A stretch of DNA of 64,000 bases from Bacillota bacterium (GTDB lineage Bacteria > Bacillota > Desulfitobacteriia > Desulfitobacteriales > JAJXUE01): NCBI GenBank assembly GCA_021783135.1, contig JAJXUE010000008.1, positions 1 to 64,000 of the forward strand, given 5' to 3'. Under the pieces are notes generated by a model. That model saw only the letters and a program-made list of their open reading frames with translations, made no database searches and was not told where the DNA came from. Position numbers and translations under genes: made by a program. Of this stretch, positions 15,025 to 28,088 are shown piece by piece; position 1 is the first letter of the stretch, and every line of letters begins with the position of its first letter.

Positions 15025-15038
15025 AAAATTTATTTTCT

Positions 15039-15288
15039 ACGTTATAATAACGTTACTTACGTTTCTATACGTTATAAACGTTATTACTATTACAGAGACA
15101 TTAAAAGACGAACAGACGAAAATGGGAATGTTTAGGTAACGTTATTAACGCTAAGAATCGTTATTTGTGAGAAAAAAATGCTATCGCATTTCTTCCTCAT
15201 GGTTTTTTAAACCGTTTTAATTGTTTTATTAACGGCTAGGCTTAAACAATCTTATAATCGTTATGGACGTTTTTGACGTTATTAACGT
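15039..15288. promoter_or_regulatory. Cluster of ACGTTA...TAACGT palindromes in the divergent control region
   Basis: Palindromes ACGTTATaATAACGT (15039-15053), ACGTTATTAACGc (15139-15151) and ACGTTATTAACGT (15276-15288), plus half sites ACGTTATAAACGTTAT (15069-15084), ATCGTTAT and GGACGTTT. This lies in the 590-nt gap between the leftward late genes and rightward accessory genes and contains no convincing ORF. Likely repeated operators or an origin-like array; the binding protein is unknown. Confidence 0.6.
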
Positions 15289-15295
15289 TGATGTG

Positions 15296-15340
15296 TCTCT
15301 AACAATATAGGCAAGTTAAAGAACCTAGTGGGGGTAGTTT
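15296..15340. repeat. Direct repeat copy B (CTCTAACAAyATAGGCA...GGGGGTA)
   Basis: Second copy of the imperfect repeat described at 14978-15024, in the same orientation, at the other side of the palindrome cluster. Confidence 0.55.
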
Positions 15341-15788: not shown

Positions 15789-15837
15789 TATACCCGCTAG
15801 TATAAATGCCACCCCAAAAGGGCGGCATTCGTAGGAT
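15789..15837. repeat. 49-bp direct repeat copy 1 with internal hairpin
   Basis: A 49-bp sequence repeated identically at 16059-16107. It contains AATGCC(a)CCC/GGG(c)GGCATT, a hairpin without T-run, then GTAGGAT. It lies just upstream of the 61-residue membrane protein gene and likely carries its expression signals. Confidence 0.85.
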
Positions 15838-15868: not shown

Positions 15869-16054
15869 GTGAATCCAATTGCATTTGACTTTACATTAAT
15901 TGCCCAAGTAATATCTTTTTTAATTGTATCGCTTCTTATTTGCGGAATTATTTATATCTTGGTATTTGTTAGAAGGAAACAAAAACAAGACAAGGAAATT
16001 GTGTCAAAGTTAAACCACATAATTAAACTATTAGAGAATGACAAAAAGATTTAG
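15869..16054 (+). CDS. Small single-span membrane protein (family member 2)
   Basis: 61 residues from a GTG preceded by AGGGGAGGGG; the ORF track start (15806) lies inside the 49-bp repeat and is unlikely. One membrane span (IAQVISFLIVSLLICGIIYILVF), then a basic tail ending 'SKLNHIIKLLENDKK'. This resembles member 3 (NKLDQLLERLTDKK). It sits between the two copies of the 49-bp repeat. Function unknown. Confidence 0.65.
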   Translation: MNPIAFDFTLIAQVISFLIVSLLICGIIYILVFVRRKQKQDKEIVSKLNHIIKLLENDKKI

Positions 16055-19016: not shown

Positions 19017-19199
19017 ATGACAGCCTTTGCCCAAATAATTACTATTATTCCAGTTATACTTATACTTTTCTTTCTTATAAGCATCATAGATTTTATGAAA
19101 AAAAAGACCAAGAATGATGAACTTCTTATCAATAAGCTTGACCAGTTACTTGAAAGATTAACAGACAAAAAAAGTAATGAATATCCAAAAGAGCATTGA
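19017..19199 (+). CDS. Small single-span membrane protein (family member 3)
   Basis: 60 residues: span IITIIPVILILFFLISIIDF followed by 'KKKTKNDELLINKLDQLLERL', the same span-plus-mini-coiled-coil plan as the genes at 15499 and 15869. GTGGGAGGG precedes ATG. A GTAGGATTATG motif lies about 90 nt upstream. Confidence 0.65.
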   Translation: MTAFAQIITIIPVILILFFLISIIDFMKKKTKNDELLINKLDQLLERLTDKKSNEYPKEH

Positions 19200-19309
19200 C
19201 CTTTTGCTATACATGCTTCAAAGCAAATTATCCGATGTTAGGTACAAAAAAGCTTAAGCCCAGAAAAATTTCCATGTGCGAAAAGACTGAACGTTAATGT
19301 CATAAACTG

Positions 19310-19409
19310 ACGAAATTTTCCCCTGACCAAGCATATACGGCAAGTAGCATGGTTGTGTTCCTGCTCTAAGCCTTGGGGCTTCGTGCCGTAACACAACGGG
19401 AAAATTCGT
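19310..19409. ncRNA. Candidate structured RNA with pseudoknot
   Basis: In a gene-free stretch: outer stem ACGAA(a)TTTTCCC/GGGAAAATTCGT encloses TACGGCA (19336)/TGCCGTA (19384) and GTTGTGTT (19352)/AACACAAC (19390). These two helices cross, forming an H-type pseudoknot. A hairpin AAGCC-ttgg-GGCTT lies inside. TGACCAA is repeated just inside and just outside the outer stem. The strand is unknown. Such folds occur in phage-borne large RNAs and in omega/HEARO-type RNAs of IscB elements, but no IscB gene is visible here. Confidence 0.5.
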
Positions 19410-20180
19410 TGACCAAACGGGCCGGGACACTCATATTTCGAAAATATATGTATTACTTACGTAGACATACACGATTAGGTACTTCATTGCTTCTAGGGTG
19501 GCATAGGGGAGGTAGAGGGACGGCAAAAGTCGTTTACGGGCGTAAGGGGCGTTTAGCACGGAAATATGCGTTATTGCTCGTCTATCTATTTTACACCAGG
19601 CGTATGCCTTGTGTGTCGTGCCCGTTTCTCGCGGTGGGGTGGCTCAAAAGGTTTATAAAACACAAAGGTTTGTTAAACGTGATATTTAAACAACCTTTAT
19701 TCAACCATTTTATGGTAGGAAGTAACGTTTTTTGACGTGCTGACTACCATTTTTTGTATTGGAAAAATAAAGTAATGCCTACGAACATATGTTTTATGGG
19801 ATGTTTTTGCCCTTATACGTAGAGCCAAAATGTGGCAAATGTTATGATGTTTCCAAACGTTCAAATCGTCCATATATTTCCTTGCACGCAATCAACGAAT
19901 AATAACGTATAACAAACGTTCGTTCCGTATTTGTTCGTTGCAATCTACGTTTATTCGTATTGTAACGTTTATTTGCTGAATGTGATCTTATTTGCTTATA
20001 ACGTTTATTGCTGTAAAGGATCTATTCGCTATATACAACCATTCGCTGCTTATACGTGTATTCGCTATTTATTTTGGCGGGTTAATGAAAGACCGGTTTT
20101 TCAAGTGGTATTTTCTATCCTTATATGGCATGAATTTTAGATACGACTATTTACATAGGCAAAACATTGGTAAAAATTGT
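19410..20180. repeat. Gene-poor region with ACGTTTATT iteron-like repeats
   Basis: No convincing gene; the 120-residue rightward ORF at 19373 overlaps the structured RNA and lacks a ribosome site. The left part is GC-richer and may continue the RNA (a hairpin CATATTT/AAATATATG near 19431-19450). From 19680 to 20090 it becomes AT-rich with ACGTTTATTCG, AACGTTTATTTGCTG and AACGTTTATTGCTG, plus TATTCGCT repeats. An origin or regulator array is possible. Confidence 0.45.
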
Positions 20181-20184
20181 GCAA

Positions 20185-20265
20185 TTGACTAACAAAGTAG
20201 GCGGTGATACCATAAGGCCATGGACAAACACGAACGACAAACAGGAGGTAAACAAAACTGAATAG
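20185..20265 (+). other. Micro-ORF, MTNKV type 1
   Basis: TTG-initiated 26-codon frame beginning TNKVGGDT. Its first bases (TTGACTAACAAAGTAGG) resemble the starts at 20291 and 21055. No ribosome site, so it may be a nucleic acid repeat rather than a peptide. Confidence 0.25.
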
Positions 20266-20290
20266 CGTTATAAATATTTAAAGAAACTAA

Positions 20291-20320
20291 ATGACTAAAC
20301 AGGTGGAGGAAGAAAAATGA
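20291..20320 (+). other. Micro-ORF, MTKQV type 2, overlapping next gene
   Basis: ATG ACT AAA CAG GTG GAG GAA GAA AAA TGA: nine codons ending in TGA that overlaps the ATG of the radical-SAM-like gene. Its GGTGGAGGAAG also provides the ribosome site for that gene. Confidence 0.3.
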
Positions 20321-21045
20321 AAAGCTATACTTTAATTGAATTGCAAGAGATTTCTACACGGGTTGAAGAAGGTAAAAGTTGTGTTTGTTCCAACCAAAAA
20401 ACGTATAAATCTCTGGATTTAACCTCCATTTGTCCTAAGCTACTGGCAGGAGATCCTTGTAAATACTGCTATGTTCAAACTAGTAGGGAAGAAGGGTTTA
20501 ACGCAAAAATCGTATATGGACGTATTACCTACAATGGCGAGATTTCCAGAATGAACCAAGCCACAATAACTAAGTTAAATGAATGTGGCGGTTTGAGAGT
20601 ATTTTCCTTCGCTGATTACTACTCTTGGATGGATGATGATCTTGAAAAAATTGTTGCAGACGCTAAAAAACGTGGTTTAAAGTTAAAGGCTATTACCAAA
20701 CAAGCCCAATTCGTTCATAAATTTTGGAAGGATTTTGATGTGATCCACGTATCAGTTGACAATATTGGCGATGGAATGGCCTGGGAAACAGCGAAAAACT
20801 TACGCGAGATGTATCCAACCGTATTAGTCCGATCTGTCATCACTAAGGACGAAGACATTCAAGCCTTGGCATGGACGGACATTTTAACACTAAATCATGG
20901 AAACAACGGCTTCAAAAATTACTCTAAGAAGAACAACGACCAATTGAGCCAAGTATTTCCGGGTAAAGTATGCTGCTCAACAGGAAAATGCCAAACCTGC
21001 AAAGTAAAATGTGGATTGACAAAAGTTGGTGATAAAAATATTTAA
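20317..21045 (+). CDS. Radical-SAM-like phage protein with C-terminal Cys cluster
   Basis: 242 residues. 'CPKLLAGDPCKYCYV' (about residues 38-52) ends in CxxCY, as in radical SAM cluster motifs, but the first Cys is spaced x8 rather than x3. A TIM-barrel-like alternation follows (LRVFSFADYYSW, LKLKAITKQ, DVIHVSVDN). The C-terminus has six Cys (VCCSTGKCQTCKVKCGL), possibly an auxiliary Fe-S site, and an N-terminal CVC adds more. It resembles phage radical-SAM/DUF5131-type proteins; substrate unknown. It precedes radC in the same direction. Confidence 0.6.
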   Translation: MKSYTLIELQEISTRVEEGKSCVCSNQKTYKSLDLTSICPKLLAGDPCKYCYVQTSREEGFNAKIVYGRITYNGEISRMNQATITKLNECGGLRVFSFADYYSWMDDDLEKIVADAKKRGLKLKAITKQAQFVHKFWKDFDVIHVSVDNIGDGMAWETAKNLREMYPTVLVRSVITKDEDIQALAWTDILTLNHGNNGFKNYSKKNNDQLSQVFPGKVCCSTGKCQTCKVKCGLTKVGDKNI

Positions 21046-22939: not shown

Positions 22940-23170
22940 ATGAATATGAAAAGATTAAATGAACAGTACTCCAAGCTCGTACTAAACGCGGCTGAAAAGA
23001 ATTGGGACAATAACAAGGACAAAATGCTAAAACGGGGCATTGATAAGAACTCTTACATGCTTGGTTACCTCCATGGATGGGAAGCGTGTTTCAGCACGTA
23101 TGACTTAGACCATGAGGGATTGGAGGATAATCAACATGGTGTTAGAGAAAACGAACCTACAGATCATTGA
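22940..23170 (+). CDS. Small acidic hypothetical protein
   Basis: 76 residues from ATG at 22940 after AAGGGAGA; the longer ORF-track version overlaps the preceding gene. Helical, charged (MKRLNEQYSKLVLNAAEKNW, SYMLGYLHGWEACFS). Its end overlaps the recombinase start region by 35 nt, implying co-translation with the tyrosine recombinase. Confidence 0.6.
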   Translation: MNMKRLNEQYSKLVLNAAEKNWDNNKDKMLKRGIDKNSYMLGYLHGWEACFSTYDLDHEGLEDNQHGVRENEPTDH

Positions 23171-24023
23171 TGATTTTCTCAGCACGAAGAAATCCGAGCA
23201 GACAAAAAAAGTGTATAGAGTGGAGTTACAGAAATTCGCTAACTTTGTGAACAAGTCCTTTGATGAAGTTACGAATTGGGATATTATAGATTTCAATAAA
23301 GTGTTGATGGCTAACAGCAAGTCAGACGCAACACGACAACGCATTTATTCGACCATCCGCTCACTTTATACTTGGCTAGTTAAAATGCACGTTATCTCAG
23401 CCGAGCAAAACCCGACAAATGGCACGATTGAAAAGCTAACGCCACATGTAGACCTGGAAAACAAATTTTTAACTGTGAAGGAAGTTGAAGCCTTTAAAGA
23501 GAAGGCAAAACCGAATGCACGTAATTACGCCATGGTAGCAGTTTTAGCCACTACAGGCTTACGGATTAGTGAAGCTCTAGGAATCAACTGGAATGACATT
23601 GTTTATCTGGAAACACCTGAAGGTTCTGGGTGGTTCGCCAGCGTTACCCGCAAAGGGGGAAAGAAGCAAAACATTTTCCTGCCAGATGGAACGTATGAAG
23701 CACTTATGCGGTTGCGGAGAAACATTCCCATCAACCCGAAAGATGATTCACCGGTATTTACTTCTCTGTTCGCTGGGCAACACAAACGGATTACAGCAAC
23801 CGGAGCAAGAAAAACGTTGGAGCAAATAGCCAAAGCTGCCGGAATTGAAAAGGAGTTCACACCGCATTGGTTTCGCCACACCTTCGTTAGTCAGTGCATT
23901 GCTGCTGGGGCCAATCCGAGGGATGTGCAATGGCAAGCAGGACATAGTTCTTTCCGCACGACTGAGCGTTACCTACATGCAATGAGCAAAGGGGTAGGCA
24001 AGTTCTTTCCGGTGAAATTCTAA
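23136..24023 (+). CDS. Tyrosine recombinase (XerC/D-like)
   Basis: 295 residues from ATG at 23136 (GGAGG seven bases upstream). N-terminal SAM-like core-binding domain (residues 1-100), then catalytic domain with Arg in 'TTGLRISEALGI', Lys in 'VTRKGGKKQ', 'HWFRHTF' (HxxR), 'GHSS' and the nucleophile in 'TERYLHAM'. All catalytic residues are present. With a separate serine integrase at the element edge, this enzyme is more likely a resolvase, dimer-resolution or inversion enzyme, or the integrase of a nested element. Confidence 0.92.
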   Translation: MVLEKTNLQIIDDFLSTKKSEQTKKVYRVELQKFANFVNKSFDEVTNWDIIDFNKVLMANSKSDATRQRIYSTIRSLYTWLVKMHVISAEQNPTNGTIEKLTPHVDLENKFLTVKEVEAFKEKAKPNARNYAMVAVLATTGLRISEALGINWNDIVYLETPEGSGWFASVTRKGGKKQNIFLPDGTYEALMRLRRNIPINPKDDSPVFTSLFAGQHKRITATGARKTLEQIAKAAGIEKEFTPHWFRHTFVSQCIAAGANPRDVQWQAGHSSFRTTERYLHAMSKGVGKFFPVKF

Positions 24024-25397: not shown

Positions 25398-26189
25398 ATG
25401 GTGGCTAAATGTTGGGGGCGGGTTTCGGGGACTGGTAAACGTTGGATGTTTGATAAGGTGGTTATGAATTTGTTGTTTACTATCAGTGTTGAGGATTATA
25501 AAACTGCTCTAACGTGCAAATCGTTGAGCGATTCTCAAAGGAAAATGCTTACGGTGCACTATGAAGCATCACGGCACAATATTACTGCATCCGAATTGGC
25601 AAAAAGAATGTCATTTGTTAACTATAATCTTGCAAATTTGTTCTACGGTAAATTAGGAAGAATTATTGGAGAACGTCTTGAATTGAAAGACATACCAGAA
25701 ACTCTCCCGGAAAAGATATTTGTAAGCATTTTGGCGACCTTTGAGAAACCTTTATTAGAATGGCACTGGATTATGAGACCTGAACTAGCTCGGGCTTTAG
25801 AAGAGTTAGGCTGGGTTAACAATGAAATAACTTCATATTTTCCTGAAGAAATAAATAATACGGGTACTTTTTTCGAGGGTTCTTTAAAAAAGATAACAGT
25901 AAATGCTTATGAAAGGAATCGGGAGGCAAGAGAAAAATGCATAAAGTTTTATGGTTGCATTTGCCAAGTGTGTGGCATTGATTTGTGTAACAATTATGGT
26001 GAAATTGCAAAAGGGTATATTCATATACACCATCTAAAGCCATTGAGCCAAATAGGAGAGGAATATGAAATTAATCCTGATTTAGACTTGATACCCGTTT
26101 GTCCTAATTGTCATGCAGTTATTCATATGAGCTCTCCTCCGTATACAATTGAAGAGATGAGAAAAATAGTAGCTAAGAAATATGAGTAA
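25398..26189 (+). CDS. HNH endonuclease (McrA-type)
   Basis: 263 residues at most; the start is uncertain because no good ribosome site precedes the first ATGs (an internal TTG after AAGGTGG is an alternative). The C-terminal HNH: 'CQVCGIDLCNNYGEIAKGY' then 'IHIHHLKPLSQIG' and 'LIPVCPNCHAVIHM', a zinc-binding His-Me finger as in McrA-like restriction nucleases. The N-terminal 150 residues may recognise DNA. Probably a restriction/defence gene carried by the prophage. Confidence 0.82.
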   Translation: MVAKCWGRVSGTGKRWMFDKVVMNLLFTISVEDYKTALTCKSLSDSQRKMLTVHYEASRHNITASELAKRMSFVNYNLANLFYGKLGRIIGERLELKDIPETLPEKIFVSILATFEKPLLEWHWIMRPELARALEELGWVNNEITSYFPEEINNTGTFFEGSLKKITVNAYERNREAREKCIKFYGCICQVCGIDLCNNYGEIAKGYIHIHHLKPLSQIGEEYEINPDLDLIPVCPNCHAVIHMSSPPYTIEEMRKIVAKKYE

Positions 26190-26585: not shown

Positions 26586-28088
26586 ATGTCTCATGACTAT
26601 GATATAAGGACTGTAGCCTTGTATCTGCGTAAATCACGGGGGCAGAACAATGAGGAAATTGACGATTTAGCACAACACAGGGCAGAACTAATAGCCATGT
26701 GTGAGGAGCGAGGATGGGCATACACCGAATACGCTGAAATAGGTACAGGCGATAAGATAAATGTCCGTCCTAAAATGCTGGAACTGCTGCAGGATGTTGA
26801 GCAACAAATGTATGACGCTGTTGTAGCAGTCCACTTCGACCGACTCAGCCGTGGTGACGAGTCTGACCAAGCTCGAATTAAGAAAACGTTTGCCATGACT
26901 GAAACATTATTTGTCACTATTACCAGGGTGTACGATTACAACAATGACCAAGATATTATGATGGCTGACTTTGAAGGAATGATGGCAAGGTTGGAATATA
27001 AGACCATTGCCAGGCGTTTTCGACAAGGTAAGGCTCGCCGAGCGAAGCAAGGATTTTGGTCGAACGGCACGCCACCCTTTCCCTACGTATTCGACCGTGA
27101 AACAGGTAAGGCCAAACCTGACGAAGCAAATCTGTTGGTTTATAGGCGAATGATCGATCTGTGCTTAAACGGTTACGCTGCTACGGATATAGCTTGGGAA
27201 TTGAATAAGGAAGGTATACCTAGCCCACGGGGTCAGTTGTGGAGTCCAGCGGTTGTAAGGCGGTTATTGATGGATGAAGTACATCTTGGACGCTTAGTAG
27301 TTGGCAAGAAACGCAAGCTGGTCGGAGCGGATGCAATTGTCCGTAAGCCTAAAGATGAGTGGATTGTTTATTATAACTGCCATCAGGCTGTTAAAACTGA
27401 ACAGGAGCACAACAAAATTCTTTTCTTAATACAGCGGCAAAAAGAAACGCCACCAGCAGCTAGAGCAGGTTCTAGCCAATTCAGTGGATTAATCAGATGT
27501 GGTATCTGTGGTCACACAATGCAGATTCAAAAGCGAAGTGACCGCCCGTCGGATCTTTTGAAAAGCTGTACACATCGTGACCATTTCGGCGTGCGTTGCC
27601 CAAACCTCGGGGGAGCCATAATTGACATAGCTATTTCGGTCAAAGAGGCAATCCTAGCCAAGCAAGAGCAATTGGAAGCGGCAATTCGAAGTGGTATTCA
27701 GTTGGAGGATATCCGAGTTATCTTGGAATTGTCAGAGCAGAAATTAGCCGAAATGAAACAGTATGATTCAATGCTTTCCAAGCTGGAAGATGCCTTCTTC
27801 GCTGAAAAGATAAGTGAAGAACGTTATATGTTAAAGAAGGCAGAGTACGAAACAAGAATTCATGCCCTGGAAGAAGAGTACAAAATCATTCAAAAACAAG
27901 CAGACAATACCCAAAATGCTAGAAACGAGGATATGCTGGATTCCGTCAAAAAGGTTCTTGCGGTTATTAATAGTAAAGACATTGAACCCAAAGATATCAA
28001 TCGGGCCTACAAAAGTATCATCCACTCAATTGAGTGGGAACGCGATGATTTTGACGACTGTGGAGCCATGAAGGTAAATTTTCTATAG
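26586..28088 (+). CDS. Large serine recombinase (phage integrase)
   Basis: 500 residues. N-terminal catalytic domain starts 'VALYLRKSRGQNNEE' with the nucleophile Ser in YLRKSRG and the conserved 'HFDRLSRGD'. The recombinase domain ('DLCLNGYAATDIAWELNKEGIPS') and zinc ribbon ('LIRCGICGHTMQI...SCTHRDHFGVRCPN') follow, then a long coiled coil. Its stop lies about 50 nt from the truncated gerW, so it integrates this prophage at gerW. Confidence 0.96.
   Translation: MSHDYDIRTVALYLRKSRGQNNEEIDDLAQHRAELIAMCEERGWAYTEYAEIGTGDKINVRPKMLELLQDVEQQMYDAVVAVHFDRLSRGDESDQARIKKTFAMTETLFVTITRVYDYNNDQDIMMADFEGMMARLEYKTIARRFRQGKARRAKQGFWSNGTPPFPYVFDRETGKAKPDEANLLVYRRMIDLCLNGYAATDIAWELNKEGIPSPRGQLWSPAVVRRLLMDEVHLGRLVVGKKRKLVGADAIVRKPKDEWIVYYNCHQAVKTEQEHNKILFLIQRQKETPPAARAGSSQFSGLIRCGICGHTMQIQKRSDRPSDLLKSCTHRDHFGVRCPNLGGAIIDIAISVKEAILAKQEQLEAAIRSGIQLEDIRVILELSEQKLAEMKQYDSMLSKLEDAFFAEKISEERYMLKKAEYETRIHALEEEYKIIQKQADNTQNARNEDMLDSVKKVLAVINSKDIEPKDINRAYKSIIHSIEWERDDFDDCGAMKVNFL

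Follow-up and report, generated by a model that had tools for sequence, protein, structure and literature searches.

The crossing inverted repeats found at positions 19310-19409 of the window (the whole 64,000-nt stretch of DNA analyzed here) may form the left border of a non-coding prophage control region, roughly 750 bp long, that works mainly as DNA, a reading to which we assign about an even chance. It draws on the presence of repeats beyond chance expectation, on a conserved box and conserved, helically phased CGT triplets next to them, and on a second region of this kind near the terminase genes of the prophage. A DNA-binding protein would occupy CGT-centered sites recurring about once per helical turn and, once bound, would form a filament or a wrap, while the inverted repeats and the box TGACCAAACGGGCCGGG would provide binding or processing sites at one end of the region. 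The role of such a region would be that of a replication origin, a partition centromere or a packaging site; here we infer the protein binding itself and, likewise, which of replication, partition or packaging applies. Interpretation of the structure as an RNA is less likely than its interpretation as a DNA control region, and a new RNA is possible but unproven.

The structure comprises the following parts, whose helices were located by script:

19310-19322, plus strand: 5' arm of the outer stem, ACG-A-AATTTTCCC
19324-19330, plus strand: first copy of the direct repeat TGACCAA
19336-19342, plus strand: 5' arm of helix x, TACGGCA (partner TGCCGTA, 19384-19390)
19352-19359, plus strand: 5' arm of helix y, GTTGTGTT (partner AACACAAC, 19390-19397; crosses x)
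19368-19381, plus strand: inner hairpin, AAGCC-TTGG-GGCTT
19384-19397, plus strand: x' and y' as one continuous strand, TGCCGTAACACAAC
19398-19409, plus strand: 3' arm of the outer stem, GGGAAAATTCGT (8 of 12 positions identical in Desulfosporosinus metallidurans, where the 5' arm is absent)

The outer stem was confirmed to enclose both helices. Its 9-bp core, in which AATTTTCCC (19314-19322) pairs with GGGAAAATT (19398-19406), is extended by 3 bp across a bulged A (ACG, 19310-19312, with CGT, 19407-19409). The 5-bp inner hairpin of the original prediction is also present, with AAGCC (19368-19372) pairing with GGCTT (19377-19381) between y and x'. Two perfect crossing helices of 7 and 8 bp had been proposed; their order, x-y-x'-y', is as described, and their combined length is one base too long, since x' and y' both use A19390 and the helices can coexist only as 7+7 or 6+8 bp. 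TGACCAA had been noted at matching places on both sides. It does occur twice, as a direct and not a mirrored repeat, in which both copies closely follow an outer-stem arm on its 3' side, such that the first copy lies inside the outer stem and the second (19410-19416), 86 bp away, outside it. The surrounding stretch, 19200-20316, contains no convincing genes and is located within the prophage, in line with its earlier description as a gene-free prophage stretch. Because the reverse complement carries identical inverted repeats, neither the strand nor an RNA or DNA nature can be read from the repeats themselves.

We looked for relatives of the region by DNA and model searches, covering 82 class and 398 phylum genomes as well as phages, plasmids and viral contigs, and by one pattern scan over 84,980 species. 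Together these yielded one clear relative, contig 40 of D. metallidurans (loci L004, L018 and L022), in collections that may omit close kin of the window. BLASTN against phages and plasmids gave no match, the genome-contig scan returned the same D. metallidurans locus only, and none of the viral pattern matches (L059-L097) was retained upon rescanning with a sequence model. Matches at L005, L006-L007, L009-L010, L012-L016, L020-L021 and L108-L109 were rejected as chance matches in coding DNA. The D. metallidurans relative is non-coding, with indels breaking any reading frame, and it starts at y', without any 5' arm. No homologue in the 82 class genomes, the 398 phylum genomes or the contig scan carries both arms of any helix, and the sole clear relative, having no 5' arms, thus gives no covariation information on the helices. 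Upstream of it, nothing complementary to its own outer 3' arm or x'y' exceeded shuffled expectation. An apparent GTTGTG/CATAAC y helix in this species was dropped because pairing as good arose in 303 of 500 shuffles and because its 5' arm coincides with or adjoins the end of a DUF6431 element. The conserved and phased elements are:

19391-19607, plus strand: stretch homologous to D. metallidurans L018, 8062-8280, minus strand (66% identity over 223 alignment columns)
19410-19426, plus strand: conserved box TGACCAAACGGGCCGGG, which includes the second TGACCAA copy (17 of 17 positions identical in D. metallidurans)
19531-19625, plus strand: seven CGT triplets forming a chain with roughly helical spacing (six conserved in D. 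metallidurans)
19906-19968, plus strand: second CGT/ACGT chain, with six members, adjoining degenerate 35-36 nt repeats at 19963-20035
15039-15288, no strand assigned: second region of phased ACGT/CGT motifs in the prophage, with the HNH gene next to the terminase genes on one side and the rightward genes on the other

The relative is conserved most strongly in the 17-bp box and in the CGT blocks rather than in the helix arms. The conserved CGT triplets fall at positions 19531, 19541, 19550, 19569, 19579 and 19601, with intervening gaps of 10, 9, 19, 10 and 22 bp, or about one or two helical turns. Across 19521-19607, all 18 CGT bases are identical in D. metallidurans, versus 37 of the 69 others (Fisher p = 7e-5). 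Sites at helical spacing are hence conserved between relatives, as in a phased array of DNA sites of the centromere or iteron type, and the fact that the relative is conserved mainly outside the pseudoknot, in the box and the phased triplets, points to DNA. The triplets begin some 120 bp past the 3' end of the pseudoknot and so need not share its function. Within the 64 kb, four of the five longest CGT chains fall in the two gene-free stretches of the prophage (seven members at 19531-19623, six at 19906-19966, five at 15040-15079 and four at 15259-15286); in 50 shuffled windows, the longest chain did not exceed four members except once, when it reached six. The degenerate tandem repeat at 19963-20035, with a 35-36 nt unit, amounts to about two copies. 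A weaker array of decamers resembling that of D. metallidurans was found in another genome of the same genus group (L100). This array is intergenic, at about 1500-1600 (G029:C366), presents ACG approximately every 10 bp and lies upstream of a predicted azoreductase gene. A strict pattern of five ACG sites at exact 10-bp spacing shows no general excess in the 82 genomes, and the arrays are consequently not a class-wide feature.

The left part of the window encodes, on the minus strand, a siphophage module with HNH, terS, terL, portal, tail terminator, minor tail and tape measure genes. The second array, which lies beside terS, terL and portal and separates the HNH gene from the rightward genes, favors a DNA control region. 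In such phages, a cos or packaging site would be expected at this place, and the stretch at 15025-15320, located beside the HNH and terminase genes, is a possible packaging or cos region. It is gene-free, presents ACGT/CGT triplets every 9-11 bp and has a copy of the direct repeat CTCTAACAAYATAGGCA on either side, at about 14980 and 15298. Small proteins with a single membrane span are encoded at 15869-16054 (weakly like DUF4083) and 19017-19199, and a block containing a GCC-rich hairpin (CCGCTAGTATAAATGCCACCCCAAAAGGGCGGCATTCGTAGGAT) is repeated near 15790 and 16060. The gene next to the structure, P0001 (242 aa, 20317-21045), begins about 900 nt past it; its product weakly matches a viperin-like radical-SAM family (E 0.0039, well short of the cut-off) and shares 51% identity with a hypothetical protein from Moorella phage MTATph1. 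This phage was discarded as a relative of the stretch, since it shares the P0001 gene only, and viral searches with the prophage proteins yielded one short terminase contig only. The right arm of the prophage carries a tyrosine integrase (23136-24023), RadC, an HNH protein (25398-26189) and a large serine recombinase related to XisF (26586-28088). The observation that no IscB is visible holds: the neighboring genes include no such family, and the right-arm HNH protein matches PF01844 only, over residues 189-240. No partition, replication or array-binding protein was recognized among the scanned prophage proteins, several of which have no assigned family.

The prophage is cut by the contig end, with its other end off the contig. 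Beside the end of the XisF-like recombinase gene, the frame at 28089-28493 matches Spore_YtfJ (PF09579, E 5.5e-30, model positions 2-81). As this frame adjoins the recombinase gene and has no start of its own, the prophage seems to interrupt the sporulation gene ytfJ/gerW, the left junction being off the contig. Intervening elements are known in sigK, spsM, gerE and yabG (PMC5595907, PMC4191935, PMC10747680); ytfJ is not mentioned in the literature retrieved by a library search on this point.

The original prediction held that chance formation of all these elements within 100 nt was unlikely, and this was assessed by counting arrangements with at most 1 nt between x' and y', a total of 14 pairs or more and an enclosing stem with a minimum length of 7 or 9 bp, under criteria fixed post hoc, after the case had been seen. 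For the 7-bp minimum, the expectation is 0.047 cases on a 64-kb strand; for the 9-bp minimum, no case was seen in either control set, one consisting of 300 Markov sequences of 64 kb (19 Mb) and the other of 1.16 Mb of further bacterial and phage DNA, both strands included. The prediction thus stands on this point, and chance alone is an unlikely source of the crossing repeats. The repeats could still be fortuitous and have been noticed since thousands of possible arrangements were inspected by eye, an explanation to which we give a low probability; it gains from the choice of the exact criteria after the fact and from the abundance of crossing helices with at least 14 pairs when the adjacency rule is lifted (50 per window strand versus about 32 expected), and loses from the empty controls and from the right edge of the structure falling in a stretch conserved in another genus. 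Far less probable still is that the structure is the remnant of a small mobile element, with TGACCAA as a 7-bp target duplication or the inverted repeats as element ends. The spacing of the TGACCAA direct repeat would suit such an origin, as would the setting of the homologous stretch in D. metallidurans, which is flanked by the end of the DUF6431 element, about 30 nt upstream, and by an IS on the other side. The structure is nevertheless single-copy in its own genome and is not repeated elsewhere in the class, and conservation extends 190 bp beyond the second TGACCAA. DUF6431 passes the family cut-off in 24 of the 82 genomes, and its association is deemed incidental, since only the D. metallidurans locus, among those retrieved, has the window stretch.

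The crossing repeats themselves count against a DNA control region, for they are unusual among DNA sites and fit an RNA pseudoknot; in addition, there is one full relative only, the third member (L100) being weak. A genuine structured prophage non-coding RNA, with an H-type pseudoknot in which x and y stack on one continuous strand and the outer stem closes the fold, is possible, if rather doubtful; it might function by itself or make up the 5' domain of a longer transcript, for instance as a regulator of phage or host expression. The absence of any equivalent in the Markov and real-DNA controls speaks for it. So does a pseudoknot energy of about -33 kcal/mol, a rough estimate obtained from a constrained fold by including the stacking of x and applying a textbook pseudoknot penalty, which comes close to the nested Vienna optimum of -35.4 kcal/mol, where part of y is used and x is absent; the pseudoknot is accordingly possible, not favored. 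The minimum-energy fold of 351 nt likewise pairs the strand after the box with about 19610-19625. Nested folding energies are nonetheless ordinary (z -0.89 for 141 nt and -0.42 for 351 nt), which suits a region acting as DNA, no terminator-like site was found and promoter-like sites are at chance level. The geometry also appears atypical, with x' running into y' without a linker and a 9-nt loop that, by our own estimate, would span about 14 bp. The covariance-model check proposed with the original prediction turned out negative: no Rfam family, HEARO, GOLLD and ROOL included, matches at gathering scores across the window, and a loose threshold (E 10, 19170-20316) gave only meaningless miRNA matches, with no HEARO, GOLLD or ROOL. 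Finally, no homologue spans the structure, and the positions conserved downstream in the relative are phased CGT triplets. That the repeats define a new family of pseudoknotted prophage RNAs, transcribed into or beside the phased CGT array, is on balance improbable; such an RNA would perhaps partner an array-binding protein in phage replication, packaging or sporulation-linked excision.

Comparison with known systems bears on both readings. GOLLD and ROOL resemble the region as non-coding phage stretches with potential complex folds and differ from it in the Rfam result; they are far larger RNAs with many covarying helices (Rfam; structures in PMC12286853). The HEARO or OMEGA RNA of IscB, suggested initially, would share a pseudoknotted fold, whereas the structure has no Rfam match and no adjacent IscB, IsrB or TnpB gene. 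Type III toxin-antitoxin RNAs of the ToxI class also contain H-type pseudoknots and have a counterpart of sorts in the degenerate repeat at 19963-20035, yet the pseudoknot unit here is not repeated and no ToxN-like gene follows; instead of a toxin gene directly downstream of tandem pseudoknots, the next gene is the distant P0001. HDV-like ribozymes need a catalytic J4/2 segment, for which the direct passage from x' into y' leaves no room, and were dropped. No reverse transcriptase, as a retron would call for, was found in the scanned flanking prophage genes. In ParR/parC-type plasmid centromeres and iteron origins, direct repeats about 10-11 bp apart load protein on one helical face. Such spacing in non-coding DNA is shared by the region described here, in which no ParR/ParM or Rep gene was recognized, the sites have only CGT in common and their spacing is irregular.

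If the structure acts as an RNA, it would represent a new class of phage RNA in spore-forming sulfate reducers and their kin. If the region is instead a DNA control region, the phased CGT arrays would offer a testable site for a candidate phage DNA-binding protein.
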